DNA from: an uncultured bacterium
Lineage (GTDB): Bacteria > Myxococcota_A > Polyangia > Polyangiales > Houyiibacteriaceae
Direction of reading: 5' to 3'
DNA length: 36,916 nucleotides
Assembly (NCBI GenBank): GCA_937984275.1
Contig: CALJYC010000127.1
Coordinates: 1 to 36,916, forward strand
Shown: positions 9,957 through 28,223 of the stretch, in pieces
Layout: every line of letters starts with the position of its first letter
How positions within the stretch are numbered: the first letter of the stretch is position 1
The notes under the pieces: model-generated
Seen by the model: only the letters and a program-made list of their open reading frames with translations
What the model was told of the DNA's origin: nothing
Databases searched by the model: none
Translations under genes and position numbers: made by a program

Positions 9957-10451
9957 ATGTCCAAGAGTCTCGCGATTCGGCAGTTGCTAGACTGTCCGGA
10001 AAAAGAATTCTGGGATCGAATCTTCGGCGGCGAAGATTTCAATAACTACTTGTACGAGGGCCTCGGCTTCGAGTACGAGCTTCAGGAGTGGAACCCTGAG
10101 ACCGGCTACCGGCGTGCCAAGATCTGGCCCACGCGTCAGATGCCGAGAGCCGTCGCGAACGTGCTCGGCAACAGGTTCAGTTACGTCGAAGAGGGGACGT
10201 TCGACGCTGAAGCCGCGCGCTACGACTTTCGCGTGATCCCTTCGGCGGTGACCGATCGCATTCGGGTCCGAGGTACGGTCACGGTCGAGGCGGTCTCAGA
10301 TCATCAATGTGAACGATGTGTCACACTCGAGATCGGAGCGAACATAGTGGGCCTCGGGCGACTCATCGAGGCGTACTTCGTAACTGCGACCAGAGAACAG
10401 TACGCGAAGAACGCAGCCTTGGTGAACGAATACCTGGCGAGCTCTCGCTAG
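9957..10451 (+). CDS. DUF2505-like (START-fold-like) protein
   Basis: ATG at 9957, 2 nt after the PP2C stop; MSKSLAIRQLLDCPEKEFWDRIFGGEDFNNYLYEGLGFEYELQEW... Family assignment by recall only. Confidence 0.6.
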   Translation: MSKSLAIRQLLDCPEKEFWDRIFGGEDFNNYLYEGLGFEYELQEWNPETGYRRAKIWPTRQMPRAVANVLGNRFSYVEEGTFDAEAARYDFRVIPSAVTDRIRVRGTVTVEAVSDHQCERCVTLEIGANIVGLGRLIEAYFVTATREQYAKNAALVNEYLASSR

Positions 10452-12166
10452 TGACCCGCAGGTCGGCCGCCTTTGCGGGGATCGCTCGCGGCGTGAAGGC
10501 GGCGCTCCGGCGAGTGCTCGATTTGGATTGCTTGCACATTGGCGACGTTGTGAATCGGATCGATCTGGTGGCCACGGGCGCGAAGCGCGTCTTGCAGGAC
10601 CGGGTCTAGAGGCGCGACTGTCTCGACGCGAAGCGCTTCGGGTGCGCCTTGGTGGTGAACGCGCGGGGCCGCCACGGCCTCGCCCACGTTCATGCCGTGC
10701 AACAAAACGTTCATCGCGACCTGCTGCGTGGCGGTCACGATCCGGCTTCCCCCCGACGCACCCACGCAAAGCACTGGCTTGCCGTTTTCGAGCACTATGG
10801 TGGGCGACATCGTCGACACCGGACGCTTCCAGGGTCCCGGTAGATTCCGGGCGCCCCCAACCAGCCCGAACGCGTTGGCCTTCCCGATGCCGCTCGCAAA
10901 GTCGTCCATCTCATCGTTCATCACGATGCCACCTCCGGTGAACCGTGCGCCAAAGGGAAGGTTCACCGTCGTCGTGATCGAGGCGACGTTGCCCTCCGCG
11001 TCTACTACGCAAAGGTGTGAAGTCCCGGCGTTATCTGGAGCCGGAACGCTAGTTTGGGGCCACTCGACGGGGAAAGCATAGTCGGTGCTCGGATGCGCTT
11101 CACCGTCAGCTGCGAGCTCGGCGCGCTTAGCGATGCGGGACGGGGCCATGATCTTTTCGAGCGGTAGGATCACCTGGTCCGGGTCCCCGAAATAGCGCTG
11201 GCGATCGAGGAACGGCCCTTTCCAGGATTCGGCCATCGCATGCAGGAGCGGCGCGCCATAAACTGGTTCCGATCCCGCCGCCTGTTCCAGGATCGAGAGG
11301 CTTTGAATCATCGTGAACCCGCCCGCGCTCGGGGGAGGCGCCGTCACCCAGCGATATCCGAACGCCTTCGTGTCGAGCGGCTCGCGCGTTCGTACCCGGT
11401 AGGCGTACAGATCTTGCAAGGTCATGATGCCGCCTTGCTTCTGAACGGCGGCCACCATCTCTTGGCCGATGATGCCGCCGTAAATGACCGCCGCACCCTT
11501 TTCGGCAAATGCGCGAAGCACACGTGCCAAGCGGGGACGACGCAACGTCGCCCCGGGTTGCAGGTCCCACTTCGCCATCACCGGGTCTTTGCGGAGCTGA
11601 ACCTCGAAGGCGCTTCCCATCGCGCCGAGCGCATCACTCACCACGAAGCCCTCTTCGGCCAAACGAAGGGCGGGCGCAATGACCTCACGCAAAGAGAGAT
11701 TCCCAAAACGCGTGACCAGCGCCTCGATTCCCGCGGGCTCCCCCGGGACGCCCGCGGCGAGGCCACCTAGCTGAGAGGGGGAGCTCGCTGGGCCCTCTCC
11801 GTGCTCGCTTTCGATCTCGAACATCGTCCGGGTCGCCGCCCGCGGGGCACGCTCGCGGAAGTCTAGAAACGTCAGTGAGCCGTCCTTGGCGCAATAGTAG
11901 AGTGCGAAGCCTCCGCCCCCGAGACCGCTGCTCGCCGGGTTAACCACACCGAGGGCCAGCATGGTGGCTGCAGCCGCGTCGGCCGCGTTGCCCCCTGCTC
12001 CCAAAATCTCGGCGCCTACCTTCGAGGCTTCCGCGTGGTCGGCGGCGACCGCGCCGCGCCGGAACACCGCTTCGGGCCCGGGTCGGGCGGGTGAGTTCGC
12101 ACCAACGAGGCCCGTGATGAGGAACGCCGAAACGCACCACAACACGATCAAAAACGAGCGCTTCAT
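10448..12166 (-). CDS. ggt: Gamma-glutamyltransferase
   Basis: AVAADHAEASKVGAEILGAGGNAADAAAATMLALGVVNPASSGLGGGGF; autoprocessing Thr region NAGTSHLCVVDAEGNVASITTTVN. Confidence 0.93.
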   Translation of the reverse strand: MKRSFLIVLWCVSAFLITGLVGANSPARPGPEAVFRRGAVAADHAEASKVGAEILGAGGNAADAAAATMLALGVVNPASSGLGGGGFALYYCAKDGSLTFLDFRERAPRAATRTMFEIESEHGEGPASSPSQLGGLAAGVPGEPAGIEALVTRFGNLSLREVIAPALRLAEEGFVVSDALGAMGSAFEVQLRKDPVMAKWDLQPGATLRRPRLARVLRAFAEKGAAVIYGGIIGQEMVAAVQKQGGIMTLQDLYAYRVRTREPLDTKAFGYRWVTAPPPSAGGFTMIQSLSILEQAAGSEPVYGAPLLHAMAESWKGPFLDRQRYFGDPDQVILPLEKIMAPSRIAKRAELAADGEAHPSTDYAFPVEWPQTSVPAPDNAGTSHLCVVDAEGNVASITTTVNLPFGARFTGGGIVMNDEMDDFASGIGKANAFGLVGGARNLPGPWKRPVSTMSPTIVLENGKPVLCVGASGGSRIVTATQQVAMNVLLHGMNVGEAVAAPRVHHQGAPEALRVETVAPLDPVLQDALRARGHQIDPIHNVANVQAIQIEHSPERRLHAASDPRKGGRPAGH

Positions 12167-12188
12167 CGCTCGCACCTTGCCTCCAAAC

Positions 12189-12208
12189 CTGCGGGGATGC
12201 TACCGCAG
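12189..12208. repeat. Inverted repeat CTGCGG-N8-CCGCAG in the ggt/gshB divergent region
   Basis: Perfect 6-bp arms read directly; lies just upstream of gshB start 12215. Confidence 0.6.
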
Positions 12209-12214
12209 AGTTTG

Positions 12215-13168
12215 ATGCGCTTCGTGTTCGTGATGGACCCCGTGTCGACGGTCATCGTCGACGAAGACACCAGCTTTGCTTTGATGCTGGAGGCGCAGGC
12301 CCGCGGCCATCGGGTCGAGCACTGCCTGCCGAGCGATGTGGGGCTTCGTGGCCGCCGGGTCGTTGCTCGAGTTAGCCGGGCTTCGATGCAACTCGACGTC
12401 GAAGAGCCGATCACCTTGGGCGAGCCGGAGGACATCGACTTGGTGGACGTCGATGCGGTGTTCATCCGCAAGGACCCACCGTTCGACGACGCTTACCTGT
12501 GGTTAACGCTCGTTCTCGATCACCTGGAGGGCAGCACACTGGTGGTGAACAACCCGCGCGGGCTGCGCGAAGCGAACGAGAAACTCTATGCGCATCACTT
12601 TCCGGAGATCGTGCCGCCCACGATCATGACGAGTCACAAGGACGAGATTCTTCGATTCTTGAGCGACGTTGGTGGCAAGGCTGTCATCAAACCGATCGAC
12701 GGTCACGGCGGTGAAAGCGTCTTCCTGCTCACCAACGGGGACAGCAACCTCAATGCTTTGATCGAGTCCGTCACCCATCTGGGCGCGCGGAATGCGATTG
12801 TACAGGCACTCATCCCAGAGGTGTACGACGAGGGGGACAAACGAATCCTTCTCGTGGACGGTGAGCTTCTCGGTGTCGTTGGGCGCGTTCCAAGCAAGGG
12901 CGACCTCCGGAGCAACGTGCACGTCGGAGGCTCAGCGGCACCGGCGGAGCTTGCCGATGCGGACCGGAAGATCATCGAGACGATCGGCCCTCGCTTGCTC
13001 GCCGATCAGCTCTTCTTGGTCGGCCTCGACGTCATTGGCGGCAAGCTCATCGAGGTGAACGTCACCAGCCCGACGCTTCTTCAACAGATGTCGCGGCTCT
13101 GCGGGGAGAACCTTTCCGTCACAGTCATCGATCGACTCGAAGAGAAAGTCCGCGCCTACCCCGCCTAG
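12215..13168 (+). CDS. gshB: Glutathione synthetase (ATP-grasp)
   Basis: MRFVFVMDPVSTVIVDEDTSFALMLEAQARGH; VIKPIDGHGGESVF; FLVGLDVIGGKLIEVNVTSPTLLQQM. Alternative start at 12197. Confidence 0.92.
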   Translation: MRFVFVMDPVSTVIVDEDTSFALMLEAQARGHRVEHCLPSDVGLRGRRVVARVSRASMQLDVEEPITLGEPEDIDLVDVDAVFIRKDPPFDDAYLWLTLVLDHLEGSTLVVNNPRGLREANEKLYAHHFPEIVPPTIMTSHKDEILRFLSDVGGKAVIKPIDGHGGESVFLLTNGDSNLNALIESVTHLGARNAIVQALIPEVYDEGDKRILLVDGELLGVVGRVPSKGDLRSNVHVGGSAAPAELADADRKIIETIGPRLLADQLFLVGLDVIGGKLIEVNVTSPTLLQQMSRLCGENLSVTVIDRLEEKVRAYPA

Positions 13169-13547: not shown

Positions 13548-14480
13548 TCAACAAGCCTGGACCCCTGTTGCACCCCACGAGACATCGATAGGATGAAGTC
13601 CTTCGTCTTTGCAAGCCACTTCGAAGCCTTTTGCGGCATCAGGGTCGACGAAGAAGGCGACCGCAACGTCGCCGCCACCTGCTCCGCATGGCTTGGCACT
13701 CCCTGAAAAACGGGCTGCAAGCTCGGACGCGCGTCTTAGCCGTGCATCGACGATCGGGGCCCGAGCCGCGGCCCCGAGCATGCCCATTGCATCCGAGTAT
13801 GCGGTCGCTTCCGTGATCACGTCGACGGCATCCCCCGCCGCGAACGCCAACGCGAATCGAGCTGCGAGCTCCGAGAGGCGCTCCATGCATGCGCGGTACC
13901 CCTCGGGATCATCACGCCGAAGCACGTGCACCTGCCCCACGAGCTCACTGGTTCGCGCTGCGTGGCCCGTCCACACGAGGCGAATCACGAGGTCGCCCGG
14001 ACGCTCAAGCGCGTCCGTCGTGACGTCGTCTCCGGTTCGACTGAATCGCAGAAAGCCCCCGAAGGTCGAGGCTGCGACGTCGACGCCGCTACCTTCCGGT
14101 GCGACCGAAGCGTGGCCCCGCAAGGCAAGCGCGAAGACGCGTTTCAAAATCTCAGCGTCATCGAGGTCATGGCCGTGCGTTGCGAAGCTCGCGCCGGCTG
14201 CCGCCACGGCCGCAGCGGCCGACGAGCCTAGGCCGAGCTTGACGCGATCCTGCTGGAGGTCGCTCACCTCCAAGGTCAGGCAACCAGGCACCGAGCCCAA
14301 CTCGGCTTGCGCCAGGTGAAGGGTGGCCACGACCTCCGGGGGCATGGGCAGCGAGTCTTCGGACCAGGCGACGGAGACACGGCGGCCGACGGCGGCGACG
14401 ACCGCTGGAGCCCCTTCGAGCACCGCGTACTCGCCGCACAGAAGAGCCTTTCCCGGTGCGCTTGCCCCGACTGGTGTCAT
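13548..14480 (-). CDS. GHMP kinase, probable phosphomevalonate kinase
   Basis: SAPGKALLCGEYAVLEGAPAVVAAVGRRV; KLGLGSSAAAAVAAAG; ATGA overlap with the MVD gene; pathway context. Confidence 0.8.
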   Translation of the reverse strand: MTPVGASAPGKALLCGEYAVLEGAPAVVAAVGRRVSVAWSEDSLPMPPEVVATLHLAQAELGSVPGCLTLEVSDLQQDRVKLGLGSSAAAAVAAAGASFATHGHDLDDAEILKRVFALALRGHASVAPEGSGVDVAASTFGGFLRFSRTGDDVTTDALERPGDLVIRLVWTGHAARTSELVGQVHVLRRDDPEGYRACMERLSELAARFALAFAAGDAVDVITEATAYSDAMGMLGAAARAPIVDARLRRASELAARFSGSAKPCGAGGGDVAVAFFVDPDAAKGFEVACKDEGLHPIDVSWGATGVQAC

Positions 14481-15466
14481 TGATGCACCTCGACACCCGG
14501 CCCCGGTTTGGCGACCCACGTTCGTGTCACACCAGGAGTTCGGTCGAGCGCTTGGCGGACTCGGGTCGCGTCACCGATCCCGCAAAGCGCTTTGACGTGT
14601 GGTCCGGCGTCCATCGTCGCCCACGCCGGTATGCCGCGCTCACGCAGCCCGCGAACGGTAGCGAGAGCGGCCAAGGTTGCAGGCGCCCAATAGAAGATCG
14701 GCGGATCTGAGGTCATTGCGCAGCTGTGAAAGGCTAGCGTGCTCTGCTCCATTGCGGCGCCTAGCGTGTCGAGGTCGCGCTCCTTCACCGCGCGCTTGAT
14801 CTTCCTCGACCATTTGGGCGCCTGGTCCAACCAAGCCTCGTAGTAGGGGGACGTCTTGCGCGAACGCTCCATCCCTTCAGTCGAGCCCACTTTCTTCTTG
14901 CCGGGCTCGGTCGCCGCGACGATCAGGCGAAGGTTCCAATGCTCCCGTGGCGCGATCGGCCTAGCGGCCAAATCCGAGTCGCCGTGGCTGCCCGCAGGGA
15001 GCTCGACGAACCCACCATAGATCGACCGAGCCGCCGAGGCGCTCGATGCTCGAGCCAGCGCACTCAGCCGGCGGGCGTTGAACCGAAGACCCGCCGCCGC
15101 GGACGCCGATGCAGCCAGCGCGGCGAACCCTGACGCGCTAGACGCGAGCCCGGCCGCGGTCGGGAAGTGATTGTGACTCGTGACGTGCGCGCTCAGGCGC
15201 AATCGCGCCTCGCGTCGAACCCGATCGAGCATGGTAATGACCCGCTCGGCTTCGGCCGCGGTCGCCCGTCGGCCGTCGAGCCTCACGACGTCCGACGCTA
15301 GCGAAGCGTCGAACCGGACTCGCGTTTCGGTCACGAGCTGGTCCAGGGTCAGTGAGATGCTCGGAACGGCGGGGACGTTCCGTTTCACGTCGGCCTTTCC
15401 CCAGTACTTGGCGAGCGCGATGTTCGCGCAGGCTCTGGAGCTCGCTTCCATCGACCGACCGGTCAT
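14477..15466 (-). CDS. mvaD: Diphosphomevalonate decarboxylase
   Basis: ANIALAKYWGKADVKRNVPAVPSISLTLDQLVTETRV; NHFPTAAGLASSASGFAALAAS; SAARSIYGGFVEL. Confidence 0.93.
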   Translation of the reverse strand: MTGRSMEASSRACANIALAKYWGKADVKRNVPAVPSISLTLDQLVTETRVRFDASLASDVVRLDGRRATAAEAERVITMLDRVRREARLRLSAHVTSHNHFPTAAGLASSASGFAALAASASAAAGLRFNARRLSALARASSASAARSIYGGFVELPAGSHGDSDLAARPIAPREHWNLRLIVAATEPGKKKVGSTEGMERSRKTSPYYEAWLDQAPKWSRKIKRAVKERDLDTLGAAMEQSTLAFHSCAMTSDPPIFYWAPATLAALATVRGLRERGIPAWATMDAGPHVKALCGIGDATRVRQALDRTPGVTRTWVAKPGPGVEVHQ

Positions 15467-16359
15467 GCGCTCACCTCCGCGACGAACGAATCTTCCCCGA
15501 GGACGTCCTGCAAGCGCAGCGCTTCATCGCGCTTGGGCGCCAGAGCAAACATGCAGCCTCCTCCGCCGGCGCCCGTCATCTTGGCGCCAAGCGCTCCCGC
15601 GTGTCGTGCGGCTTGGCACATGTCGTCCAGTTTGGTGGTGCATAGCATCAGCGAGCTGAGGATCGTGTGGTTCAAGTCGAGCAGTTGCCCGAGCGCGATG
15701 TGGTCGCCGGCCTCGATGGCAAGCTTGGCGTTGCGCACCAGCACCTCGATGCCTTCGAAAGCCTTGTTCACGCGCTTTCGGTCGCTCTTCAACTGCCTGC
15801 CAACGGAGGCCACCATCTGTTTCGTGCTCGAGGACTCGCCACTGTAACCGATCACCAAGTGCAACGGCTTGTTCGAGCGTAGCGGCCGAAGGGCATCCCC
15901 CTTGCGATAGAACCCAACGCCTCCGATCGCCGACATGGTGTTGTCGATTCCCGATGGATTGCCATGAAAGATCTCCTCCCAAGCAAGTGCCGCCGTCGCG
16001 AGGTCGGTCCGCGAACGCTCGATGCCGAGGGCCTCGTCGATCGCGTCCAAAACGGCTACGCCGATCGCGGCGGAGCAGCCGAGCCCCGCACCGGCCGGGA
16101 GATCGACCTGCGCGCTCACCTCGAGCGGGGGTCGCGATGGATACATCGCCAGCGCAACAGCAAACGCTCGTTCGAGGGGCTCGTCTCCTTTGGGATCGGC
16201 CCTGAGCGCCAAGTCCCAAGGTGAGAGCCGCAGGAGGTCGCGCTCGGCTGCGGCCGCGGTGGCGGTGACGCCCCGTTCGATGCCCACCGCGATCGCCGGG
16301 CAACCGTGAACCACCGCATGCTCCCCAAGCAAGATGACCTTGCCTCTTCCGAAGCCCAT
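15463..16359 (-). CDS. Mevalonate kinase
   Basis: GKVILLGEHAVVHGCPAIAVGI; LPAGAGLGCSAAIGVAVLDAI; AKMTGAGGGGCMFAL. Confidence 0.9.
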   Translation of the reverse strand: MGFGRGKVILLGEHAVVHGCPAIAVGIERGVTATAAAAERDLLRLSPWDLALRADPKGDEPLERAFAVALAMYPSRPPLEVSAQVDLPAGAGLGCSAAIGVAVLDAIDEALGIERSRTDLATAALAWEEIFHGNPSGIDNTMSAIGGVGFYRKGDALRPLRSNKPLHLVIGYSGESSSTKQMVASVGRQLKSDRKRVNKAFEGIEVLVRNAKLAIEAGDHIALGQLLDLNHTILSSLMLCTTKLDDMCQAARHAGALGAKMTGAGGGGCMFALAPKRDEALRLQDVLGEDSFVAEVSA

Positions 16360-17381
16360 CAGGTCCCTCGGTCCGTGAGCCGCCCTGTCACTTCCTCGAG
16401 CAACTGCTTGGCTTCTTCGTCGAATGGGCTCGTCGCCAGGGCGCTACGCGCCTCGTCGGCCAAGAACCCGAGCCGCGTCTTGACCTCCCGTTCCGCCGCG
16501 GACAGAACCTTGGTGGCAGCGAGGACCTCGTCGTCTGTCGCATCGGCGCGTCCCCAGACGCCCTCGAGCACTGCTCGTTCCGCGTCGCCGTGACCGAGCC
16601 TACCAAACGCTGCCACGACGGCGTTGTGCTTGCCGTGCCGCAGGTCATCCCCCGGCTTTCCGGTCTGCTCGGCGTGCCCGAACGTTCCGAGGAGATCGTC
16701 CCGGAGCTGAAACGCGACCCCGAGGGGCGTGGCCCAACGGCGCAGTGATTGCATGCCCGCCTCGTCCGCATCGGCGAGGATGCCCCCAAGCTCCGCCGGC
16801 CCGCGAGTCGTGTAACTCCCGGTCTTCAGGTCGTGCATTCGCTCGACATCTCCGTCGGTCATCAGGTCGAGTTGCTGTCCCGCAAACACTTCCTTCTGGA
16901 TTCTCACGAAGAGCGCCAAGCCTTCCTCCCGCCGGCCCTCAGGAAAGTTGCCGCTGAGCAGAAGCTCCCAACCAAAGGTCGAAGCCAAATCCCCAGCGAG
17001 GATTCCGAGGCTCGCGCCCAAATGATCGTTCCTGTGCTTCTTTTGGAACGCGTAGTGTACCGCAGGCCCTCCACGGCGTTCGTCGTCCTCGTCCATCCAG
17101 TCGTCGTGAATCAGCAGGTACGTCTGCAGAAGCTCCAAAGCGGCGCCGACCTCGAAGGTCGGGCTGAGGTCACTGGCTCCACTGGCGGCCCTATAGGCGG
17201 CCGCGGTGACGATCGGCCGGAGCCGTTTACCCCCACGCATCGTCAGGTCGCGAACCTCGGTGACCAGCTCGATGGCCTGTGGCGACAGGCGACTGGCTTC
17301 CTCGCACTTCGACTCGAAAAATCGATCCAGGATGTCGTCGACGTCCCGACGGATGCCTCCCATCCAAGACTCGAGATCCAT
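16359..17381 (-). CDS. Polyprenyl (probably geranylgeranyl) diphosphate synthase
   Basis: LLIHDDWMDEDDERRGGP first Asp-rich motif; GGKRLRP; FQLRDDLLGTFG second motif. ATG 17381 preceded by AAGGG; upstream alternative ATG at 17471. Confidence 0.88.
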   Translation of the reverse strand: MDLESWMGGIRRDVDDILDRFFESKCEEASRLSPQAIELVTEVRDLTMRGGKRLRPIVTAAAYRAASGASDLSPTFEVGAALELLQTYLLIHDDWMDEDDERRGGPAVHYAFQKKHRNDHLGASLGILAGDLASTFGWELLLSGNFPEGRREEGLALFVRIQKEVFAGQQLDLMTDGDVERMHDLKTGSYTTRGPAELGGILADADEAGMQSLRRWATPLGVAFQLRDDLLGTFGHAEQTGKPGDDLRHGKHNAVVAAFGRLGHGDAERAVLEGVWGRADATDDEVLAATKVLSAAEREVKTRLGFLADEARSALATSPFDEEAKQLLEEVTGRLTDRGT

Positions 17382-17457
17382 TTGCCCTTGCGCCACGGTG
17401 TCAGTGTCCTTATTCCGAGCTACGTACACGGCAGGACGCTGCCGAGCAAGCAACGCG

Positions 17458-18498
17458 ATGACCTCAGACATTGAGCAGAGAAAGGCCGACCATCTCGATC
17501 TGTGCGCGACCGACGATGTCGCGTTTCGGCAGCGCACCACCCTTCTCGAATGCGTACGGCTGGTACATCAGGCGCTTCCCGAGGCCGACTTCGACTCGAT
17601 CGACACCCGTGTTCGGCTGCTAGGCAAGGAGCTCCGCGCGCCGTTGTTGATCGCCGCGATGACCGGCGGGCACGAGCGCGCCGCCGAAATCAACCAAGCC
17701 CTAGCCTCAGTCGCCAATGAGCTTGGCTACGCGTTCGGCTTGGGAAGTCAGCGCGCGATGCAAAAGCGCCCAGAGACGAGTTGGACGTACCAGGTTCGCA
17801 AGCGCGCGCCTCACGCCCTGCTCTTCGGCAACGTTGGCGTGGTGCAGGCGCGCGACCTGTCCACCGACACCATCGCACAGATGTTGGCAGAAGTTGGCGC
17901 CGACGCCCTGTGCGTGCACATGAACCCTGCCATGGAGCTGGTTCAACCCGAGGGCGATCGCAATTTCAGCGGTTGTCTCCAGACCTTCCAACGACTCTGG
18001 GCGGAGCTCGATGTGCCGGTCATTGCGAAAGAGACCGGGAACGGGATCAGCCGTGAGGTCGCGGCCCAACTTCGTGCGATCGGGATCCGGCACGCCGACA
18101 CCTCGGGTGCGGGCGGCACCTCGTGGGTCGGCGTCGAAACCTTGCGCGCCGACGGCGACGGGCAAGCGCTCGGCGAGGCGCTATGGGATTGGGGTATCCC
18201 CACGGCAGCGTCGGTTCGATATTGCGTCGAAGCGGGGATGACAACGATCGCGACTGGTGGCATCCAAACCGGCATGGACGTGGCCCGGGCAATCGCCCTC
18301 GGGGCGAGTTGTGCCGGCATCGCGCGCCACGTCTATCAGGCGTTTCTCGGAGGCGGCACCGACGGCGCGCGCTCGTTCTTGCTGCGAATCGAGCGTGAGC
18401 TTCGCTCGGTCATGCTGCTCTGTGGCGCCAAGACGATCGAAGAGCTTCAGCAGGCACCACGCATCGTAACAGGCGAGCTCCGCGACTGGCTCGCCTAG
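17458..18498 (+). CDS. fni: Type 2 isopentenyl-diphosphate delta-isomerase
   Basis: MTSDIEQRKADHLDLC; LLIAAMTGGHERAAEINQALASVANELGYAFGLGSQRAM; VIAKETGNGISREVA; DTSGAGGTSWVGVE. Confidence 0.93.
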   Translation: MTSDIEQRKADHLDLCATDDVAFRQRTTLLECVRLVHQALPEADFDSIDTRVRLLGKELRAPLLIAAMTGGHERAAEINQALASVANELGYAFGLGSQRAMQKRPETSWTYQVRKRAPHALLFGNVGVVQARDLSTDTIAQMLAEVGADALCVHMNPAMELVQPEGDRNFSGCLQTFQRLWAELDVPVIAKETGNGISREVAAQLRAIGIRHADTSGAGGTSWVGVETLRADGDGQALGEALWDWGIPTAASVRYCVEAGMTTIATGGIQTGMDVARAIALGASCAGIARHVYQAFLGGGTDGARSFLLRIERELRSVMLLCGAKTIEELQQAPRIVTGELRDWLA

Positions 18499-19545
18499 TT
18501 AGCTTTCGGCGGGGGCTTCGCTCGGGACGGTTTCGCGCTCTTCAGGCGCGTAGCGCAGCAAGTCTTCGACACGCTCGAGGAGCTCTCCCTCAAAATGCAC
18601 CGAAAAGCGCGGCTCGAGGAGTTTTGTTCGAACGCGCCAGACGACCGGGTCGGCGGGGTCGCGGAGCACTACCGGCGTGGCTCCGGCCAGCACCCAAGGT
18701 GAGCTGAGGATCGCGTCGGTGAGGGCCATACGCACCTTGCCTGCGTCGTTGTAGCCTTCGAGGCGCACCACCACCTCGTGCTCGGCTTCCGCGCCCGCGT
18801 CGTACACCATCGGCGCGCCGACCATCGCGCGATTGGGTACCGTCAACCGATGGCCTTGTCCGTCACGTAGCCAAGTCGCCCGGAGCGACCGTCCTTCGAC
18901 GGTACCTTGGAAACCATCGCCCGAAACCCACATGCCCCTCTTCACGCGGCGCTCAGCTGCCAAGATTCCACCCGCAACTAGATCGGCGAACAGATCGCGC
19001 ACGGACCATCCCACGACCAATGCGAGAACGAGCAGCGTCCAGAGAATCCAGTCCTGACCGGCAGGGACCAATTGGAGGACAATCGCCAGAAGAAGCCCGA
19101 AGCCGGCCAACCGCAAAGCGAAGACCAGGACGCCCAAGACGCGCCGCAACGGAATATTGGTCGTGATCCAACTGCGGGCGCGCTCGGCGAGGAACAGCGC
19201 GACCCCCACGCCCAGGAGTGAAAGGAACAGGATTAGAAGCTGGTTGCGGTCGTCAGACGGCGGAGGTTCCTGCTCCAGTGGGAGTGCTGGAGGCGCCTTC
19301 GCGATCCAGTGTGGCGGCTCCAGAGAAGGCTCACTCGGTCGCGTCTCCGGTTTGACGGGAGCCGCCGGCGTGGGCGCAGGCTTGCTCTGCGGGACCGGCT
19401 CGGGTGCGGGCGGCGCAGGCGGTTCCGCTTGCTCCTCGGGTCGATTTGATTGCCACGCGGACGGGTCGAGCAGCTGGGCTCCGGCGGGGGCCGCGATCGA
19501 CGCGACCAGGAGCACCGACAAGCAGGAACGGCGAAGTGTGCTCAT
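18499..19545 (-). CDS. MscS-family mechanosensitive ion channel with signal peptide and Pro-rich segment
   Basis: Signal peptide MSTLRRSCLSVLLVASIAAPAGA; Pro/Ala-rich linker; four hydrophobic helices; WSVRDLFADLVAGGILAAERRVKRGMWVSGDGFQGTVEGRSLRATWLRDGQGHRLTVPN. Confidence 0.85.
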   Translation of the reverse strand: MSTLRRSCLSVLLVASIAAPAGAQLLDPSAWQSNRPEEQAEPPAPPAPEPVPQSKPAPTPAAPVKPETRPSEPSLEPPHWIAKAPPALPLEQEPPPSDDRNQLLILFLSLLGVGVALFLAERARSWITTNIPLRRVLGVLVFALRLAGFGLLLAIVLQLVPAGQDWILWTLLVLALVVGWSVRDLFADLVAGGILAAERRVKRGMWVSGDGFQGTVEGRSLRATWLRDGQGHRLTVPNRAMVGAPMVYDAGAEAEHEVVVRLEGYNDAGKVRMALTDAILSSPWVLAGATPVVLRDPADPVVWRVRTKLLEPRFSVHFEGELLERVEDLLRYAPEERETVPSEAPAES

Positions 19546-22500
19546 CACAGCACCCACCCTCGCTCCGCGAATACGCGGCCCAACACCCCTCGCAAGTGGA
19601 CCGCGATCACGAACGCTCCCTCGCGCTCGTCGAGCAAGCCGAGGTGTGCGAGCCGGCTCAACTGCGCCTGCGCGGTGTTGACGTCGAGCCGGAACAGCCT
19701 CGATTGGCCTGCCGCGTCGATCCAACCTTCACGCGCGATCTGATAGAGGTTGACCAAGATATCGTCCGGAAGGCGCCGCACGCGCGCGTAAGACGAAGCC
19801 GGAATCGGCCCAACGTGCACGATGTCATCTTGGATGCCCCGGATCGAAGCGAGCCATAGTCGGAGCGCATCGCGCACGAGACCACCGGTCGCTTCGTGAA
19901 GCTCGTGGAAGTATTGATCGTACGGCCGGCGAATGCGGGTGGCGCTCCGCGCAAACAAGCCTTCGATTGGCGAGCCCTCTCCGCGATCGAACGAGTGTTC
20001 AAAACCGCTCAACCGGTGCCTGGCGATGACCGCAGCTTGAAGCTCCTGCTCGTTCAACGGGTCGAGCCGGATCGTCTCTGGGAACGCGTCTCGCAATGGC
20101 GCGACCGTCGAGGCGAAGTTCCAGAACAGCACGGCGCCATGTGCCAACCAACGGCGCCGGCCCCCTTCCTCGATGATGCCTTTGACGAATCGGCGAAGTG
20201 GGGCGAACCCTCCCGGCGCCATCGAGAGCATCCAATGAAGGCCGTCTACGACGACGAGCTGCCCTTCCGGGGCGTCCTGGAAAATCGCGTCGACGTCCTC
20301 GACGCTCACTGGAGCGGTGAACACGACTCGCTTCACGTTCTTCCAACGGCGGCTTCGCACGATCGCGCTCGAAACCGCCGCCTTGCCGACGCCGTCGACG
20401 CCGATCAGCGCGACCGACCGCAACCGTCCCTTGACCTCGCTCGAAAGCACGGCCTCGGCGCGGCGGATCTCTTGGTCACGGCCGGTGAGCACGTCTCCGG
20501 CCTCCATCGTGTCGGCAGCGAAGAGCCGGCGGTAGACCAGCGGCAGGTCAGCCGCCACATCAGGAGCGGCGAACGTTCCCGCAGACAGCTCCTCAGTCGG
20601 CAACGCTCCAGTGAGGCCGAGACGCTCGCTCCAACGCTCCAGCTGCTCCTCGCCGAACAAGGCACGAAGTCCGCCGCGCAACTGGGCCTTGAGCCGCTTG
20701 CTGCGAGGCACGCGCTCCGCCTTTTCGATCATTCGAAGGCCGCTGGCGGCGCGGCGCATGGCCTCTAGCCGCGACTTACTGAACGAGCCCTCGGCCAGTT
20801 CGCCGCGAAGCGTTTCGAGTGTGCCGAGCGCCGCGTCACGCATCTCGGTTTCGATCATTGCGGGCCAGCCCTTGGCTTCGGCGCGGATCTCCTCGAGCGA
20901 ATTGTAGCTCCGCTCGAGTTGGCCATAGACCATGTCGCGGAGCAGCGTGTGCATCTCTTCTGGGATCGCCTCGTCGTGGACGATTTCCAGCTCCGCGGTA
21001 GCCAGCTCCACGTTGAAGGCGACAACACGTTCGAGCTCTTGCAGCACGTTCGCCAACGGCTGGATGCGCTCCGCGAGCTCACGGCGGCTTGCGAGCAACT
21101 TCGGCGCCACACGGCTGTCGATGTAGGTGAGCACCACTTCTCGAAAGGGCACCTCGACCTCGGGCAGCGAAGTTGGCAGGCGCCACTCGCCGGTTTGGCG
21201 TTGCCCCACGGTCACCCGGTAGCGTGGGGTGAGGCTGCGGCAGGCATCGACCAAGGTATCGAGCAGGGGCGCGATCTTCGTGTCGTCGCTCAGGTCTTGA
21301 TAGAGCTCGGTGGTCACACGGGCGGCTTCGCCTGTGGCCTTGCTCGTCGCCTCCGTAGCCTGGCGCAGCGCGGCGGCAAGCTCATCACCGGAGTAGTCGC
21401 TCTCAAGCTCGGTATTGAGCTCCCCGAGCGCGTTGTGAAGCGTGTCACTCACGCGTTCCACCTGCGAGATCGCGCGCCGCTTGACCGTGTTGGTGAGCCG
21501 CAAGACGTACTCGGCAACGTTATCTTTGATGCGCGCTTCGAGCCCCAGCAGCTCCAGCTCCATCGCGAGTGAGGAGTACTCGGCCGAGCTCGCCTTTCGA
21601 AGGTTGGACACGTCCTTCGTGAGCGTCTCCATAGCGCGCATGCGGTTTGCGAAACGCCGGCTGGTACGGCGCTCGCTCGTCCGCAGGTCCAGTGTCCCGA
21701 AAATCGGGAGGTCTTCCTTCATTTGGACGAAGCCAGAGGCAAGCGCACTGGCCGCGCGATGAGTCCCGTCGCCCGTGATCCGAACGATTTCGTCGAGCGC
21801 TAGAGCAAGCTCCTCTTCCACGTCATGTCGCAGTTGAACGAGCTGCGCCTCGAGGTCGGCGTCGGGTGCGGCGGCTTCGTCTACGATGTCGTCGTAGCCT
21901 GCAATCACCCCATCAAAGAGGCTTCGCGTCCGTGCTGCGAGGTGCCTGTCGGCTTCAACGAAAAGTGCAGCCAAACCCTCGAGCCGCGCCGGCGCGTCAT
22001 ACGAGAGATGGAATCGGCCCAAAGCACGCAGCCGAACGTCGCGCGTCGGGGCGCCTTGCCCGAAGGCTTTGCGCCAGGCCGCTCTCACACGAAGAACCTG
22101 GCGCCGAAACGCTTTCCCAATTGAATCGCTTTCCTTCGACTGGAACGACACCGCTTCGTACGGAGCGGTGACGATCTCTGGCAGCTCGTCGACCAACCCG
22201 TCGACGTTGTCCAGCATGGTTTCCGGAGTCCATGTCAGCTTGGCGAGCGTCACCGACCGTCCGAGCACGATCCCCCGCCAGTGTGCTGCCAAATCGGATT
22301 GTGCGGAGCGCAGCATCGTCACCAGCTCATCGCGCTCGGTACCCTCCCCTGCGCGCGCTTGCACCGTCAAACGTCGATGGTGACGCAGAAACTCGCGTCG
22401 CAAGTCGCGCAAGTACTTCCCGGCGTCGAGCTGGAAATCCCGAAGCGGCCCTGTCGATACCTCGCGAACGATGCTTTGAAGATCGCCCGCGAGATCCTGC

Positions 22501-24059
22501 ATGCGATTGTTGAGCTCCGCGCTCTTGGTGTGCAATGGGGAGCCCCACAGATCCTTCTTGCCAACGTGCTCGGGCCAGGGCTCGAGTTGTTTGACCGCGC
22601 CCTCCTCGCCTAGGGGTCGCATAGAAGGAGGTTTCACCGACAAGTGCCTTGCCGGAGTGAGCGACGCGCGACTGGTGCTCGTCTCCCCCGAGAGAGTCAG
22701 GCCCATCTTGAACATCACCGGCCCGATCAGCTCGTTGATCGCGACACCCCCGATGATCAACGTCTCGAGCGACCGCCCGAGCTCACCGAATGTGTTTCCG
22801 ATGATCGCGGCAAGCAGGATCGACACCCCCGCCTGTGAAACGAACCCCATCCACCCGAAGTTCTGTGTCGCCTCGTCCGCCTTGGCGAGCCGGGCGCCCA
22901 CCTTGGTGCCGGAGTAGATCGCGAATGCGCGGACGCCAACCAGGGCCACCGCGAACAACGCGACCTGTTGGAGCTCCTCCAGATGGAGCTTTGCGCCGGC
23001 GAGCGTAAAGAAGACGACGTAGACCGGCAGCGACAGGCGCTCCACAGTCTCGATGAGTCGGTGCCCCGTCTTCGAGAAGTTGGAGACGCCGAAGCCGGCG
23101 GCGAGGAACACCAGCACCGGGTCCCAACCAAGCTCCGCGGCGATAAAGGCGACGAGGTATACGACGCCAACGACGAAGATCAGAAGCTCCTGGTTGACGT
23201 ACCGAATGTAGAGGGCCATCAGGCCGCCCACGACGACCGCCCCAAAAATGATCGAGAAAACGATGTGCTGCAGGAGGTAAGCCACGATGCCGCCCTCCAT
23301 CGTGGTCACGCCGACTTGCTGCGCGAGGACCACTTGGGCGACCGCAAACGCCACCACGACGATCACGTCCTTGAGGACCACCACCGACAGGACGTTCCTC
23401 GTCATCGTGCCCGCGGCCCGCGATTCCATGATCACGGCGATGGTGGCGGCTGGAGAGGTTGCCAAGGCCACCGAAGCGACCATCGCGCCCACCGCCAACG
23501 CAGCCGCCATCGGCAAACCCTCGATACCCGGCAAGCCGATGAAAGGCACCGCGCCCGAAATCAACCAGAAGAATGCGGTGACCAACACACCGATGGACAC
23601 GATCTGCGCTGCGAGAATGGAGCTGATCGCGCGAAACCCCTTCTTGAGCCCTTCGATCTTGAGCTCGCCACCGGCAGTGAGCGCAATCAAAGCAACTGCG
23701 AGCGAGTCGAACAAACTGAGTTGCTCGATCACGTCTGCGTTGAGAATGCCCTGGTCGAAAGGCGCGGGGAGCCCCAAGCCAGTCAGCGCTTTCGCCAGCG
23801 AAGGGCCGAACACGAGACCCGCGATCAAGTAGCCGGTGATGTGGGGTAGGCGGATCTGGGCGACGAGCCCACCGATCGTGTAGCTCGCCAAAACAACGAA
23901 GCCGAAGGCGAGCATTCCGCTCGGGTCGAAGCCGTCTTGAGCGAACTGCTCGAACTGATACAGCGCCACCATGCCGAACAGCAGCAGAATGATGACGGTG
24001 ATCTGCCGGCGCGCGTGGGTCTCTTCGCCGGGCGGAGGCATGCTGTATGCGCCCGTCAT
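19545..24059 (-). CDS. 1504-aa fusion: CPA-type cation:proton antiporter membrane domain, long alpha-helical cytoplasmic region, P-loop NTPase-like domain, winged-helix-like C-terminus
   Basis: Residues ~25-440 antiporter (LPHITGYLIAGLVFGPSL; VALATSPAATIAVIMESRAAGTMTRNVLSVVVLKDVIVVVAFA); Walker A-like GVDGVGKA at 1220-1227; Walker B-like QLVVVDGLHW; C-terminal LNVTAQAQLSRLAHLGLLDEREGAFVI-type segment (sequence reads LDVNTAQAQLSRLAHLGLLDEREGAFVI). Confidence 0.85.
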   Translation of the reverse strand: MTGAYSMPPPGEETHARRQITVIILLLFGMVALYQFEQFAQDGFDPSGMLAFGFVVLASYTIGGLVAQIRLPHITGYLIAGLVFGPSLAKALTGLGLPAPFDQGILNADVIEQLSLFDSLAVALIALTAGGELKIEGLKKGFRAISSILAAQIVSIGVLVTAFFWLISGAVPFIGLPGIEGLPMAAALAVGAMVASVALATSPAATIAVIMESRAAGTMTRNVLSVVVLKDVIVVVAFAVAQVVLAQQVGVTTMEGGIVAYLLQHIVFSIIFGAVVVGGLMALYIRYVNQELLIFVVGVVYLVAFIAAELGWDPVLVFLAAGFGVSNFSKTGHRLIETVERLSLPVYVVFFTLAGAKLHLEELQQVALFAVALVGVRAFAIYSGTKVGARLAKADEATQNFGWMGFVSQAGVSILLAAIIGNTFGELGRSLETLIIGGVAINELIGPVMFKMGLTLSGETSTSRASLTPARHLSVKPPSMRPLGEEGAVKQLEPWPEHVGKKDLWGSPLHTKSAELNNRMQDLAGDLQSIVREVSTGPLRDFQLDAGKYLRDLRREFLRHHRRLTVQARAGEGTERDELVTMLRSAQSDLAAHWRGIVLGRSVTLAKLTWTPETMLDNVDGLVDELPEIVTAPYEAVSFQSKESDSIGKAFRRQVLRVRAAWRKAFGQGAPTRDVRLRALGRFHLSYDAPARLEGLAALFVEADRHLAARTRSLFDGVIAGYDDIVDEAAAPDADLEAQLVQLRHDVEEELALALDEIVRITGDGTHRAASALASGFVQMKEDLPIFGTLDLRTSERRTSRRFANRMRAMETLTKDVSNLRKASSAEYSSLAMELELLGLEARIKDNVAEYVLRLTNTVKRRAISQVERVSDTLHNALGELNTELESDYSGDELAAALRQATEATSKATGEAARVTTELYQDLSDDTKIAPLLDTLVDACRSLTPRYRVTVGQRQTGEWRLPTSLPEVEVPFREVVLTYIDSRVAPKLLASRRELAERIQPLANVLQELERVVAFNVELATAELEIVHDEAIPEEMHTLLRDMVYGQLERSYNSLEEIRAEAKGWPAMIETEMRDAALGTLETLRGELAEGSFSKSRLEAMRRAASGLRMIEKAERVPRSKRLKAQLRGGLRALFGEEQLERWSERLGLTGALPTEELSAGTFAAPDVAADLPLVYRRLFAADTMEAGDVLTGRDQEIRRAEAVLSSEVKGRLRSVALIGVDGVGKAAVSSAIVRSRRWKNVKRVVFTAPVSVEDVDAIFQDAPEGQLVVVDGLHWMLSMAPGGFAPLRRFVKGIIEEGGRRRWLAHGAVLFWNFASTVAPLRDAFPETIRLDPLNEQELQAAVIARHRLSGFEHSFDRGEGSPIEGLFARSATRIRRPYDQYFHELHEATGGLVRDALRLWLASIRGIQDDIVHVGPIPASSYARVRRLPDDILVNLYQIAREGWIDAAGQSRLFRLDVNTAQAQLSRLAHLGLLDEREGAFVIAVHLRGVLGRVFAERGWVL

Positions 24060-25549
24060 CAGCGTCTCCAGAACCCAGGCAGGATCAGTGCGAACAGCGT
24101 GAAGAACTCGAGTCGTCCGAGCAGCATGGCGATCGCAAAGAACACCTTACTTCCCGCCGAATAGGAAGAGAAGTTGTCCGGCCCCACGTGGAAGGGTGCG
24201 GGGCCCATGTTGGACAGGCAAGTCAGCATCGTTCCAAACGCGGTGGGTGCCGGAACACCCTCGACCAGCGTCACGAAGAGCAGGCCAAAGCCGATGCATC
24301 CCATGTAGATCAAGAAGAACGATGCGACGTCAGCGAGGACTTGGTTGCTGATCGCGACCTTGCCCATGCGAACCAGCTGCACGGTAGCGGGCCGGAAGCT
24401 CTTCTGAATCTGAGAAACGGCCTGCTTGCCCATCAGCACCGCCCGCTCGACCTTGATGCCGCCCGCGGTAGAGCCGGAGCATCCGCCGACGAACATCAAC
24501 AAGATCACGATGGTAAGCGCGGTGGAGCTGTAAACGCTGTAGTCGTCGGTACCATACCCGGTGGAGGAGATCGTCGTCGCCACCATGAAGAACGAGTAGC
24601 GGAAAGAGGTAAGGAACTCTTCATGCACGCTGAGATTCAGGACCGTCAGCACGAGCACCGCGAGGAGCACGATGCCGACGTACCAGCGAAACTCGATGTT
24701 TCGCACGAGCGTCCTCCAGCTGCCGGTCCGCAGCAGGCCGTAGTAGAGGCCGTAGTTCACGCTGCCGATCAACATGAAGCAGGCGATCACGTACTCGACC
24801 GCGGCGCTGTCGAATCCTCCCACCGAGCTATCGAGCGTCGAGAACCCGCCCGTCGACATCGTCGTGAACGCGTGGCACACGGCGTCGAAAAGGTCGAGGC
24901 CGAGGACCTTGAGCAAGGCGACCTCGAGGATGGTGAAGGCGCCGTAGAGCTTCCAGAGGGTGAACGACGTCTCGGCGATGCGAGGCCTCAACCCTTCGGC
25001 CGTCGTTCCGGGCACCTCTCCGCGGAACAGGTGCTTACCGCCCGCGCCCAAGTTCGGGAAGACGGCAACGAACAACACGACGATGCCCATGCCGCCAAGC
25101 CACTGAATCAAGGAACGCCAAAGCAACAGCGGGCGCGACAAGCGCCCTTCAATGTCCGATATGACCGTGGCGCCTGTGGTCGTGAGACCGCTGACCGATT
25201 CGAAGAACGCATCAGCAACCGACATGCCCGCCCCGAGCATGAAGGGGACGGCTCCACACGCGCCCGCCGCGATCCAAATCAGGCTCACGGCCAGCAGGGC
25301 CTCCCGGCGCGAGATACGCTCGGACACGAAGCGGTTGCCGTAGAGGAACGCCGCCATGCCAATGGTCGACACGATGATGGCAGACAGAGCCAACTCCGCG
25401 GCGCCGCCTTGGGGCCGACTCGGGTCAGGCGCGAACTGGTCCCAGAGCATCCCGACCCCAGCGCACAGCGCGATCATGACGCCGATCCCCAGGACAACGG
25501 CCCCGACTGGTCGGATCACCCCGCGAAAATCTCTCGACTGTGTGGTCAC
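24059..25549 (-). CDS. trkH: TrkH-family potassium transporter subunit
   Basis: FFESVSGLTTTGATVISDIE; AFTTMSTGGFSTLDSSVGGF; GGCSGSTAGGIKVERAVLMGK; LSNMGPAPFHVGPDNFSSYS. Confidence 0.93.
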   Translation of the reverse strand: MTTQSRDFRGVIRPVGAVVLGIGVMIALCAGVGMLWDQFAPDPSRPQGGAAELALSAIIVSTIGMAAFLYGNRFVSERISRREALLAVSLIWIAAGACGAVPFMLGAGMSVADAFFESVSGLTTTGATVISDIEGRLSRPLLLWRSLIQWLGGMGIVVLFVAVFPNLGAGGKHLFRGEVPGTTAEGLRPRIAETSFTLWKLYGAFTILEVALLKVLGLDLFDAVCHAFTTMSTGGFSTLDSSVGGFDSAAVEYVIACFMLIGSVNYGLYYGLLRTGSWRTLVRNIEFRWYVGIVLLAVLVLTVLNLSVHEEFLTSFRYSFFMVATTISSTGYGTDDYSVYSSTALTIVILLMFVGGCSGSTAGGIKVERAVLMGKQAVSQIQKSFRPATVQLVRMGKVAISNQVLADVASFFLIYMGCIGFGLLFVTLVEGVPAPTAFGTMLTCLSNMGPAPFHVGPDNFSSYSAGSKVFFAIAMLLGRLEFFTLFALILPGFWRR

Positions 25550-26886
25550 TCACCCCTCGGTCGAAAGAGCCGCTCGACGGTTGCCCGCGCTTCTTTGGTC
25601 GTCATCAGGATGACCCGATCACCTGGCCGCACGACGTCTTTGCCGTGTGGAATGATCACGTCGTCGCCGTGTACGATCGCCGCAAGGAGGGAGCCTCGGG
25701 GCAGGTTCATTCGGTGCAGCGGTTTGTTGACCGCGCGGCACTTCGGGCTCGCCGTGAGCTCGACGACCTCGGCCTGACCGTCTTCGAGTACCGTCAGGCT
25801 GTGGAGACCTCCGCCTCGGGAGAAGCGCAGGATTTGGTCCGATGCCACGGTGCGCGGGGAAAGAACGATGTCGACACCGAGTTGGCGGTAGATCGACGTG
25901 TAGTCGGCGCGCTGCACGATCGTTGCGGTTCGCTTGCACCCCGCGCGCTGTGCGAGGAGGGCCGCCATGAGGTTGATCTCGTCCTGCTTCGTGACCGCAG
26001 CAAACAGATCATAGGTGCCGACCTCTTCTTCTGCGAGGAGCGCCCCATCGGTGCCGTCGCCATGCACGACCTCGATCCCCTGGAACTCGCCGCTGACCTC
26101 CTCGGCGGTGGCGAGGTCGCTTTCGATCATCATGACTGTCGCCTGCTGTTGCAACAGCTCCCGCGCGAGCGCCTTGCCGACGACGCCGCCACCGACGATG
26201 CAGACTCGGCGCGCCTCGCGTTCCTTGCTGAAGAGGCGCTCTGCGGCGAGCACACCCTCGGGGCGTCCGATCAAATACACGCGGTCGCCTTTGACCAACA
26301 CGTCTGCGCCGCCGGGAACGAACAGCTCTCCGTCACGGACGACCGCGCTCACCAGCGTGTGTGGCGGGAGCTCGACCGCAGAGAGCGGTTTGTTGAGGGC
26401 GCGCGACTCATCGAGGTCGATTTGCACGAGCTCGACCCGATCCTGCGCGAGATCCACGACATCTGAGGCACCATATGACCGAGCGATGCGGCTGAGCTCT
26501 TGAGCGACTAGCACGCGCGGATTGATCACGACGTCGACCCCGAGCAGCCCGTAGCGTATGCCGTCGGTCCACTCGGACCATGCGGTGCCCTGGACGCGCG
26601 CCACGACGTGCTTCGCTCCCAGCTGCTTGGCGGCAAGTGCGGCGATCAGGTTCATCTCGTCGTGGTTCGTTACAGCGACGACCAGGTCCGCGCGGGCCAC
26701 ACCCGCAATCTTGAGCAGGGTTTCACTCGCCCCATATCCAACGATCGATGCGACGTCATAGTGCTCTTCGGCGTACTGCACCGCCTTGGCGTTCGCATCG
26801 ACGGCGACGATATCGTGTCCTTCTTTGTCGAGGACGCTCAACAAGTGCCGCCCGACTTCGCCCAAACCTATGACGACAATGTTCAT
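25546..26886 (-). CDS. trkA: TrkA, two-RCK-domain potassium transporter regulator
   Basis: MNIVVIGLGEVGRHLLSVLDKEGHDIVAVDANAKAV and second Rossmann motif VCIVGGGVVGKALARELLQQQATVMMIESD, each followed by a TrkA_C-like segment. Confidence 0.94.
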   Translation of the reverse strand: MNIVVIGLGEVGRHLLSVLDKEGHDIVAVDANAKAVQYAEEHYDVASIVGYGASETLLKIAGVARADLVVAVTNHDEMNLIAALAAKQLGAKHVVARVQGTAWSEWTDGIRYGLLGVDVVINPRVLVAQELSRIARSYGASDVVDLAQDRVELVQIDLDESRALNKPLSAVELPPHTLVSAVVRDGELFVPGGADVLVKGDRVYLIGRPEGVLAAERLFSKEREARRVCIVGGGVVGKALARELLQQQATVMMIESDLATAEEVSGEFQGIEVVHGDGTDGALLAEEEVGTYDLFAAVTKQDEINLMAALLAQRAGCKRTATIVQRADYTSIYRQLGVDIVLSPRTVASDQILRFSRGGGLHSLTVLEDGQAEVVELTASPKCRAVNKPLHRMNLPRGSLLAAIVHGDDVIIPHGKDVVRPGDRVILMTTKEARATVERLFRPRGE

Positions 26887-28223
26887 CTGCTAGTTACCTC
26901 GATCGATGTTCGGGAATCGGAATCCTTGAGCTCGCGCTGGATCTCGCCCTCATCGACCAGCAAGCCTCTCAGCAATCGCGGTGCCATCAGGTCATTCAAG
27001 ATGATGGAACCCAGAACGACGGAGTACGCGATCTTTGCGGCCTCTCCCTCGTAGACCAGGCGAAAAGAGACGGCCATCGCAAGCGTGACGTCACCGTGCG
27101 CCAACAACCCACGGAACAAGTCCTTACGCAGGCTGGTACCCCAGCCGGCGATCACGCTCGCGAGCCATTTAGCACCCGTGCGGGCGACGAGGAATCCTCC
27201 CAACGCGAGTAGGGTCGGCACCAGCTCCGTGCGCTCCCACAGCGCGCCGGCAAAGATCAGCAGCACGATCGCCATCGGACGTTCGGTCGACTCGAGCGTG
27301 GTATGCAAGAGCTGGCCACCTCGCGCAAAGTTCACCAGCACGAACCCCATCGAGAGGTTCACGGCCAACGGCGAAAGCTCGAGGAAATACGCCCCGCCGG
27401 ACGCGAAGGCGATGATGCCGACCAATGCTAAGAATCGCGAGTTGTCCGACTCATCGCCGGCTAGGAAGAGTGAAAACAAGAACCCCAGCGCGCCGCCGAG
27501 CAACACCGTGACCCATGCCCACAGTGCAGGGGAGTAGTCCTGGGCTTGCGGGGCGTTCTCGTGGAAAACGCAGAAGATCAAGCCAAACGCGAGGATGACC
27601 GCGATGTCCCCGAGGCGTGTTCCGTTTCGCAACAGTGAAGCGAGGCGTCCGCTGACCTCGTAGCGCCTCGCGAGCAGGTCGAATGGCTCCGCCGAGTCAG
27701 CCGCCGCAAAACAGGCCAGCGCCGAAGCGCTCAACGCAGCGTCACGAGGGGAGGTGAAGACCCACCCCGTCTTCGTGAAAAAGTAATAAGACCCGATGCC
27801 GACCGCTACACCCGGCAGAAGGTGATGCAGGAACACGACGCGCCACGTGGCAGGGTCGAGCTTCTGAAGACTAGCGAAGTCGAAGTCCGTACCGCGCAGC
27901 AACCCGACCCACCCAGCTGCGAGCGCGATGATCGGCAGCAACCCGGCGACGTTGTCGAGCGCGTGGATTGCGGGGAAGGCCGGGCCCAGCAAGAACCCCA
28001 ACAACAGATACTCGGCACCGCTGACGACGAGAAACCGACGCTGCAATCGCTCGACGACGTTATGCGCGAGAACGTACGCAACGCCGATCACGATCACGAG
28101 CAAGACGACCGTCCCCAGATCATCCGCGCTGTCGCTTGGACCCGACCCGCTCGCCGCGTGTGCGACGCCCGGCAGTGCCGCCCAGACGAGCGGCACCACG
28201 GTCACCATCAGCCTCCCCAGCAT
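26883..28223 (-). CDS. Cation:proton antiporter-like membrane protein with N-terminal signal-peptide-like sequence
   Basis: 446 aa; many hydrophobic helices; VVSGAEYLLLGFLLGPAFPAIHALDNVAGLLPIIALAAGWVGLLRGTDFDF; HGDVTLAMAVSFRLVYEG; ATGA overlap with trkA. Confidence 0.75.
   Translation of the reverse strand: MLGRLMVTVVPLVWAALPGVAHAASGSGPSDSADDLGTVVLLVIVIGVAYVLAHNVVERLQRRFLVVSGAEYLLLGFLLGPAFPAIHALDNVAGLLPIIALAAGWVGLLRGTDFDFASLQKLDPATWRVVFLHHLLPGVAVGIGSYYFFTKTGWVFTSPRDAALSASALACFAAADSAEPFDLLARRYEVSGRLASLLRNGTRLGDIAVILAFGLIFCVFHENAPQAQDYSPALWAWVTVLLGGALGFLFSLFLAGDESDNSRFLALVGIIAFASGGAYFLELSPLAVNLSMGFVLVNFARGGQLLHTTLESTERPMAIVLLIFAGALWERTELVPTLLALGGFLVARTGAKWLASVIAGWGTSLRKDLFRGLLAHGDVTLAMAVSFRLVYEGEAAKIAYSVVLGSIILNDLMAPRLLRGLLVDEGEIQRELKDSDSRTSIEVTSR

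Follow-up and report, generated by a model that had tools for sequence, protein, structure and literature searches.

How is an ion antiporter controlled when its cytoplasmic end is of another kind than the RCK, CNBD, USP or calmodulin-type tails through which antiporters are known to be regulated? The question is raised by a gene in the window, the whole stretch of 36,916 nucleotides analysed here, which comes from an uncultured bacterium of the Myxococcota (contig CALJYC010000127.1). The gene lies at 19545-24059 on the minus strand and, as an earlier note on this DNA had reported, is one unbroken open reading frame (ORF) of 1504 aa running from ATG to TGA; the plus-strand reading of the same interval has many stops. 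It encodes a CPA-type antiporter with a very large tail, and the gene that follows is that of an MscS-like channel protein. We consider it about an even chance that the two genes form an ion- and volume-control unit in which the AAA+/winged-helix end of the tail couples the transporter to the MscS-like pore, with an ATPase that is degenerate in the clade of the window protein. The anatomy of the giant protein is well supported, and its parts are the following.

19545..24059, minus strand: whole gene, CPA antiporter with helical linker and AAA+/winged-helix tail, 1504 aa
22695..23927, minus strand: CPA antiporter membrane domain, residues ~45-455 (PF00999 match, invariant columns in 19 homologues)
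20640..22652, minus strand: long charged helical region, residues ~470-1140 (long helical bundles and short strands predicted; no known family)
20064..20477, minus strand: AAA+ nucleotide-binding core, residues ~1195-1332 (predicted model, Foldseek, alignment A5)
20379..20402, minus strand: degenerate Walker A, GVDGVGKA, residues 1220-1227 (Ala in place of the canonical Ser/Thr)
20241..20258, minus strand: degenerate Walker B, LVVVDG, residues 1268-1273 (Gly in place of the catalytic acid)
20004..20021, minus strand: conserved lid-entry motif, RHRLSG, residues 1347-1352
19563..19790, minus strand: C-terminal winged-helix domain, residues ~1424-1499 (predicted model)

Pfam analysis revealed that residues 59-450 match PF00999 (Na_H_Exchanger) above its gathering score (E 4e-22, 79 bits against a cut-off of 26.2), which agrees with the assignment of the first ~440 aa to a CPA/KefB-type antiporter domain. 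The TSP motif and Asp231 (VVLKD231) are invariant across 19 homologues, and by motif Asp231 stands where CPA exchangers are expected to have their ion-binding Asp, comparable to the K+-site residue D156 of KefC (PMC11150392). No RCK (TrkA_N/TrkA_C) match was found anywhere in the 1504 aa (Pfam, E up to 1) and no NCBIfam match either, and neither library places an RCK or USP domain in the chain. The chain itself thus lacks an RCK tail, as proposed earlier; an RCK protein, TrkA, is encoded by a separate gene of the same operon. Searches for solved structures gave no match for the whole protein (phmmer) and none for the antiporter profile A3 even at E 10. Over residues 451-1190 no Pfam or NCBIfam family was detected, and AlphaFold, given an alignment of 19 homologues, predicted mainly long helices for residues ~500-1100 (pLDDT, the predicted local distance difference test, mostly 85-95), in line with the previous description of ~700 aa of charged helical sequence belonging to no recognised family.

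Foldseek returned no match at E <= 0.001 for the whole 1035-aa tail, and the C-terminal 396 residues were therefore modelled separately with 42 sequences (alignment A5). The resulting AlphaFold model (pLDDT 86.7; predicted TM-score, pTM, 0.82) comprises an AAA+ core, a helical lid and a C-terminal winged helix, the last being formed by the final ~75 aa as three helices and a beta hairpin. With this model Foldseek found RuvB (E 7e-9, probability 1.00), Orc1/Cdc6 (E 1e-8 to 5e-8) and also NLR proteins, at modest TM-scores (0.33-0.41 of the query). When PDB sequences were searched with a profile of the module, Cdc6/Orc, ClpC and RuvB were recovered, and the end of the module led to MarR/ArsR-type winged helices; the winged helix of the homologues gave MarR/MarR_2, TrmB and ArsR-type matches that were sub-threshold or marginal. 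These results support a predicted AAA+ fold with a winged helix at the end of the tail, the closest solved folds being RuvB and Orc1/Cdc6, and the model thus bears out both the NTPase-like fold proposed for residues 1150-1504 and the winged helix proposed behind it. AAA_16 matched the window protein below threshold (E 0.0055); among the 42 members, at E <= 0.1, AAA_16 was found in 32 and nSTAND1 in 13, the window protein itself being below the cut-off. A STAND/AAA_16-like motif, TGRDQE (GR-x-x-E type), precedes the P-loop of the window protein, which ends with the winged helix and has no C-terminal repeat superstructure as in classical STAND proteins.

The relatives studied here come from the Myxococcota, and the comparison was made within this phylum. 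Matches were present in 45 of the 58 relatives, ~28 of them full length without internal stops (43-93% identity) and spread over many Myxococcota families, and the tail profile search added further families. On inspection, most of the weaker tail-profile matches were also antiporter-helical-AAA+ proteins, 1400-1700 aa in length. No plasmid-borne relatives of the tail were found. Two relatives, L005 and L012, lie on chromosome-level contigs of metagenome-assembled genomes (MAGs); in L005 (CP070650.1) the match stops at residue 1479 and the end of the gene is not intact. At this locus an in-frame stop also splits TrkH, and the end of the giant ORF and the MscS partner are damaged, probably by sequencing error or decay. 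The genome of the window is fragmented (397 contigs), and an assembly or annotation error might have joined two genes there; given that dozens of independent genomes, chromosome-level MAG contigs included, carry the same full-length stop-free frame, the likelihood of such an error is negligible. An assembly artefact was accordingly rejected, and the fusion is genuine.

The tail is not confined to antiporters. The same C-terminal module stands behind three kinds of membrane protein. Two are transporters, the CPA antiporters and the SLC12-like cation-chloride cotransporters; the third kind begins with a signal peptide and has a coiled stretch in the periplasm and 5-6 transmembrane segments (TMs) ahead of the AAA+/winged helix. 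The SLC12-like front ends match AA_permease (PF00324, E 1e-40 to 1e-45) and, among PDB entries, NKCC1 and KCC structures (E ~1e-67); for those of L093, L095 and L160 the best-matching NCBIfam family is the K-Cl cotransporter TIGR00930 (E 1e-102 to 1e-115), although their 345-388 bits lie below its strict curated cut-off of 953. The signal-peptide front ends have no Pfam or NCBIfam match. Members of this class are L153, L155, L156, L162-L165 and L169-L171, and the MscS-like gene mostly adjoins them. The tail tree separates the SLC12-type, signal-peptide-type and window-type tails into three clades (support 0.98-1.0). One tail stands alone: L088:6190-9063 encodes 958 aa and no antiporter; it lies between TrkA-TrkH, which it follows directly, and an MscS-like gene, and this tail either can work without a front end or is decaying. 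At L118, an antiporter is present without the tail.

The MscS-like gene directly downstream accompanies nearly all of these tails.

18499..19545, minus strand: MscS-like channel gene (PF00924), ~348 aa from the ATG at 19545-19543

The stop codon of the giant antiporter and the ATG of this gene overlap by one base (TGATG). Because of this overlap the ATG at 19545 is likely the true start, and the listed ORF 18499-19725 (TTG start) is likely over-extended. The protein has a signal-peptide-like start, a proline-rich stretch, TMs and an MscS beta domain (PF00924, E 3e-9, 37 bits against a cut-off of 20.2); its matches to solved structures are MscK (7uw5, E 9e-8) and MscS (2vv5, E 2e-5). Under a strict rule, an MscS-like frame lies directly downstream of 65 of the 69 testable tails (67/69 when two long stop-to-stop frames, at L113 and L162, are counted), and just two more such frames occur elsewhere in 1.2 Mb. 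Since the MscS-like profile had been trained on this same downstream set, the result was checked independently with Pfam, and PF00924 scored above its cut-off in 8/9 partners checked, with all three front-end classes represented. The partner is thus nearly obligatory. Tail and partner have also diverged together. Tree distances of 51 non-redundant pairs gave a Mantel r of 0.77, reached by 0/2000 shuffles and likewise by 0/2000 shuffles within classes, a correlation that could in part arise from common species history alone. The tail and the MscS trees both recovered the three clades, window-type, SLC12-type and signal-peptide-type (support 0.98-1.0).

The state of the ATPase site differs among the classes. 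The P-loop (G1220-A1227) and the Walker B-like strand (L1268-D1272), previously read from GVDGVGKA ... QLVVVDGLHW, are real, but both are degenerate: the Walker A sequence has no Ser/Thr after the Lys, and Walker B has D1272-G1273 where D-E is expected. Within the window clade a strict Walker A was found in 2/33 sequences, and the catalytic position of Walker B is acidic in 1/34, several members having lost even the Lys; ~15 of the 33 are near-identical members of one genus, and these counts are not independent. Both motifs are intact in all five SLC12-type tails, and among the 11 signal-peptide-type tails Walker A is intact in eight and Walker B in six; Walker A is also retained in the homologues L113, L117 and L048. 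Residues of the fold are still conserved (LP-x-VYRR-LF, RH-x-x-SG, GG-x-x-x-x-AL and the winged helix), and in the RHRLSG motif the Gly is nearly invariant and Ser/Thr usual across CPA- and SLC12-type tails. Given that the Walker A Ser/Thr and the Walker B catalytic acid have nearly always been lost in this lineage, the module of the window clade looks like a pseudo-ATPase. The loss of the site there, its integrity in the SLC12-type tails and the retention of the fold residues together suggest descent from a working ATPase that later became a binding-only or structural module.

Further upstream, three genes complete a minus-strand operon in which five genes, in the order CPA2b exchanger-like, TrkA, TrkH, giant antiporter and MscS-like, overlap in series.

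24059..25549, minus strand: TrkH K+ uptake channel (PF02386, E 5e-50)
25546..26886, minus strand: TrkA with two RCK (TrkA_N/TrkA_C) units (PF02254, E 2e-46; NF007039 above cut-off), overlapping the start of TrkH
26883..28223, minus strand: exchanger-like membrane protein 'CPA2b', first gene of the operon, whose homologues score to the antiporter profile A3

The ATG of the giant antiporter overlaps the stop of TrkH by one base (TGATG). CPA2b (26883-28223) has no significant Pfam or NCBIfam match, though throughout the phylum it is retained as the leading gene of the operon. In 38 inspected loci, 10 of them from the genus of the window, the upstream exchanger-like gene was present 37 times, accompanied by TrkA and TrkH in 27 and alone in nine; because of these nine, TrkAH is a usual but optional member of the operon. 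Other genes of the window deserve mention. The operon has genes for gamma-glutamyltranspeptidase and glutathione synthetase in its vicinity (10448-13168), and a link to glutathione-gated K+ efflux is possible. A mevalonate-pathway cluster at 13548-18498 (GHMP kinases, diphosphomevalonate decarboxylase, polyprenyl synthase and a flavin mononucleotide-dependent IDI-2-like enzyme) adjoins the ion operon in same-genus loci as well. An 883-aa protein encoded at 946-3597 on the minus strand has HEAT repeats behind its TLC ATP/ADP transporter domain (PF03219, residues 92-398) and is another transporter with a big fused regulatory-looking tail.

We propose that the CPA-type K+(Na+)/H+ antiporter bears, in place of RCK, a ~650-aa helical stalk ending in an AAA+ module (RuvB/Orc-Cdc6/STAND-like) with a winged helix, and that this tail would be the common part of a two-gene unit of the Myxococcota whose membrane front end is interchangeable. 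The next gene, usually overlapping start to stop, would supply an MscS-like channel subunit, and transporter and MscS-like protein may be made together and form one complex. The tail could sense either the state of transport or a cytoplasmic signal, be it nucleotide, ionic strength, crowding or volume, and relay it to both transporter and channel. K+/H+ exchange and the release of solutes or ions would then be adjusted together with uptake through TrkAH, which the same operon encodes. In the window clade the tail would most likely act as a binding-only or purely structural allosteric arm, because its ATPase site has decayed. A more general version of the proposal is possible, although we hold it only tentatively: throughout the Myxococcota the tail may directly gate both the membrane protein that carries it, be this a CPA antiporter, an SLC12-like cotransporter or an MscK-like sensor, and an MscS-type pore that is a separate protein. 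ATP would drive or set the switch in the branches with SLC12-like and sensor front ends, and the window branch would have a pseudo-ATPase version. Several points weigh against coupling of transporter and pore through the tail. Adjacency and co-divergence show functional linkage rather than contact; the helical stalk is weakly conserved between front-end classes; TrkAH is absent from some loci (L105, L114, L083-L087); no downstream MscS-like gene was found for L086 or for the damaged locus L005; and K+ rather than Na+ as the substrate is suggested by the context.

Other explanations were considered for the same data. The tail may be an assembly scaffold that docks the MscS-like subunit beside the transporter without any signal, its decayed ATPase just keeping the fold. 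The loss of the active site alongside conserved fold residues, the one-base gene overlaps and the stand-alone tail of L088, still paired with TrkAH and MscS, would all fit such a scaffold; however, the intact Walker motifs of the SLC12-type and most signal-peptide-type tails suggest that the ancestral module used nucleotide, and a 1000-aa tail is costly for mere docking, so that we regard this as rather unlikely. Quite improbable is the reading of the earlier note, a STAND/AAA switch that hydrolyses nucleotide, takes the place of RCK and acts only on the antiporter. It accords with the AAA_16/nSTAND-like sequence and GR-x-x-E motif, with the AAA+ fold found by Foldseek and with the Walker A kept in L113, L117 and L048, but it is unsupported as stated, given the near-complete loss of both catalytic motifs in the clade; it also leaves the MscS partner unaccounted for, and the C-terminal repeats of classical STAND proteins are absent. 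The winged helix at the extreme end, with its marginal MarR_2/TrmB-type matches in homologues, could instead bind DNA, as the winged helices of Orc/Cdc6 do, and make the protein a membrane-tethered transcription factor with the transporter as sensor (CadC-like logic). Yet the winged helix belongs to the core in AAA+/STAND proteins such as RuvB, Orc and NB-ARC and often has no regulatory role there, and the constant genomic partner here is a channel gene; we therefore give this reading very little credence.

If the coupling of transporter and pore is true, a tail swapped among unrelated transporters and travelling with an MscS-like pore would represent a new regulatory logic for the control of K+ and turgor, MscS channels being thought to be gated mainly by membrane tension. 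It would point to an undescribed bacterial control of ion balance and cell volume, offer predictions on transporter-channel complexes that can be tested directly, and place the bacterial relatives of the volume-regulating SLC12 transporters in a common frame, with active and decayed ATPase versions offering a ready comparison. Searches of the open-access literature found neither a STAND/AAA-antiporter nor such an MscS pairing, and no system in which unrelated ion transporters have an AAA+/winged-helix tail in common and are paired with an MscS-like gene. The statement that no described transporter class is known to have this layout is consistent with these searches; the picture drawn with it was right as to layout and missed the operon, the MscS-like partner and the sharing of the tail by unrelated membrane proteins. 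Each part has a known fold, and the novelty lies in the layout of the unit, not in the inferred mechanism.

Among known systems, KefB/KefC, the CPA2 K+/H+ exchangers, also have a CPA membrane domain with a conserved ion-site Asp, a large cytoplasmic tail of nucleotide-binding fold and a K+ context (PMC11150392), but their tail is a Rossmann RCK domain and their partner KefF/KefG, whereas here an AAA+/winged helix with a degenerate nucleotide site sits on a ~650-aa helical stalk and the partner is an MscS-like channel. TrkH-TrkA, encoded in the same operon, likewise has a cytoplasmic regulator governing K+ flux; TrkA is a separate RCK protein, whereas the tail of the giant antiporter is covalently fused and has an AAA+ fold. 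The SLC12 cation-chloride cotransporters resemble the front ends to which relatives of the tail are fused in other Myxococcota, but the C-terminal domain of eukaryotic SLC12 proteins is not known to be related to the AAA+/winged-helix tail. STAND, AAA_16 and Orc1-Cdc6-type ATPases have a GR-x-x-E motif, AAA+ core, lid and winged helix that resemble those predicted here; unlike them, the protein described here has a helical stalk on the N-terminal side joining the module to a transporter, no C-terminal repeats and, in the window clade, a degenerate active site. MscK and MscM are large channels of MscS type that respond to K+ (PMC9653487). MscK is the best match of the MscS-like partner, and the signal-peptide front ends, which have no Pfam or NCBIfam match, resemble in topology only the periplasmic and TM part of MscK without the pore. 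In contrast to MscK/MscM, the pore and the large membrane part are here encoded by separate genes, and it is the large part that carries the AAA+/winged-helix tail.

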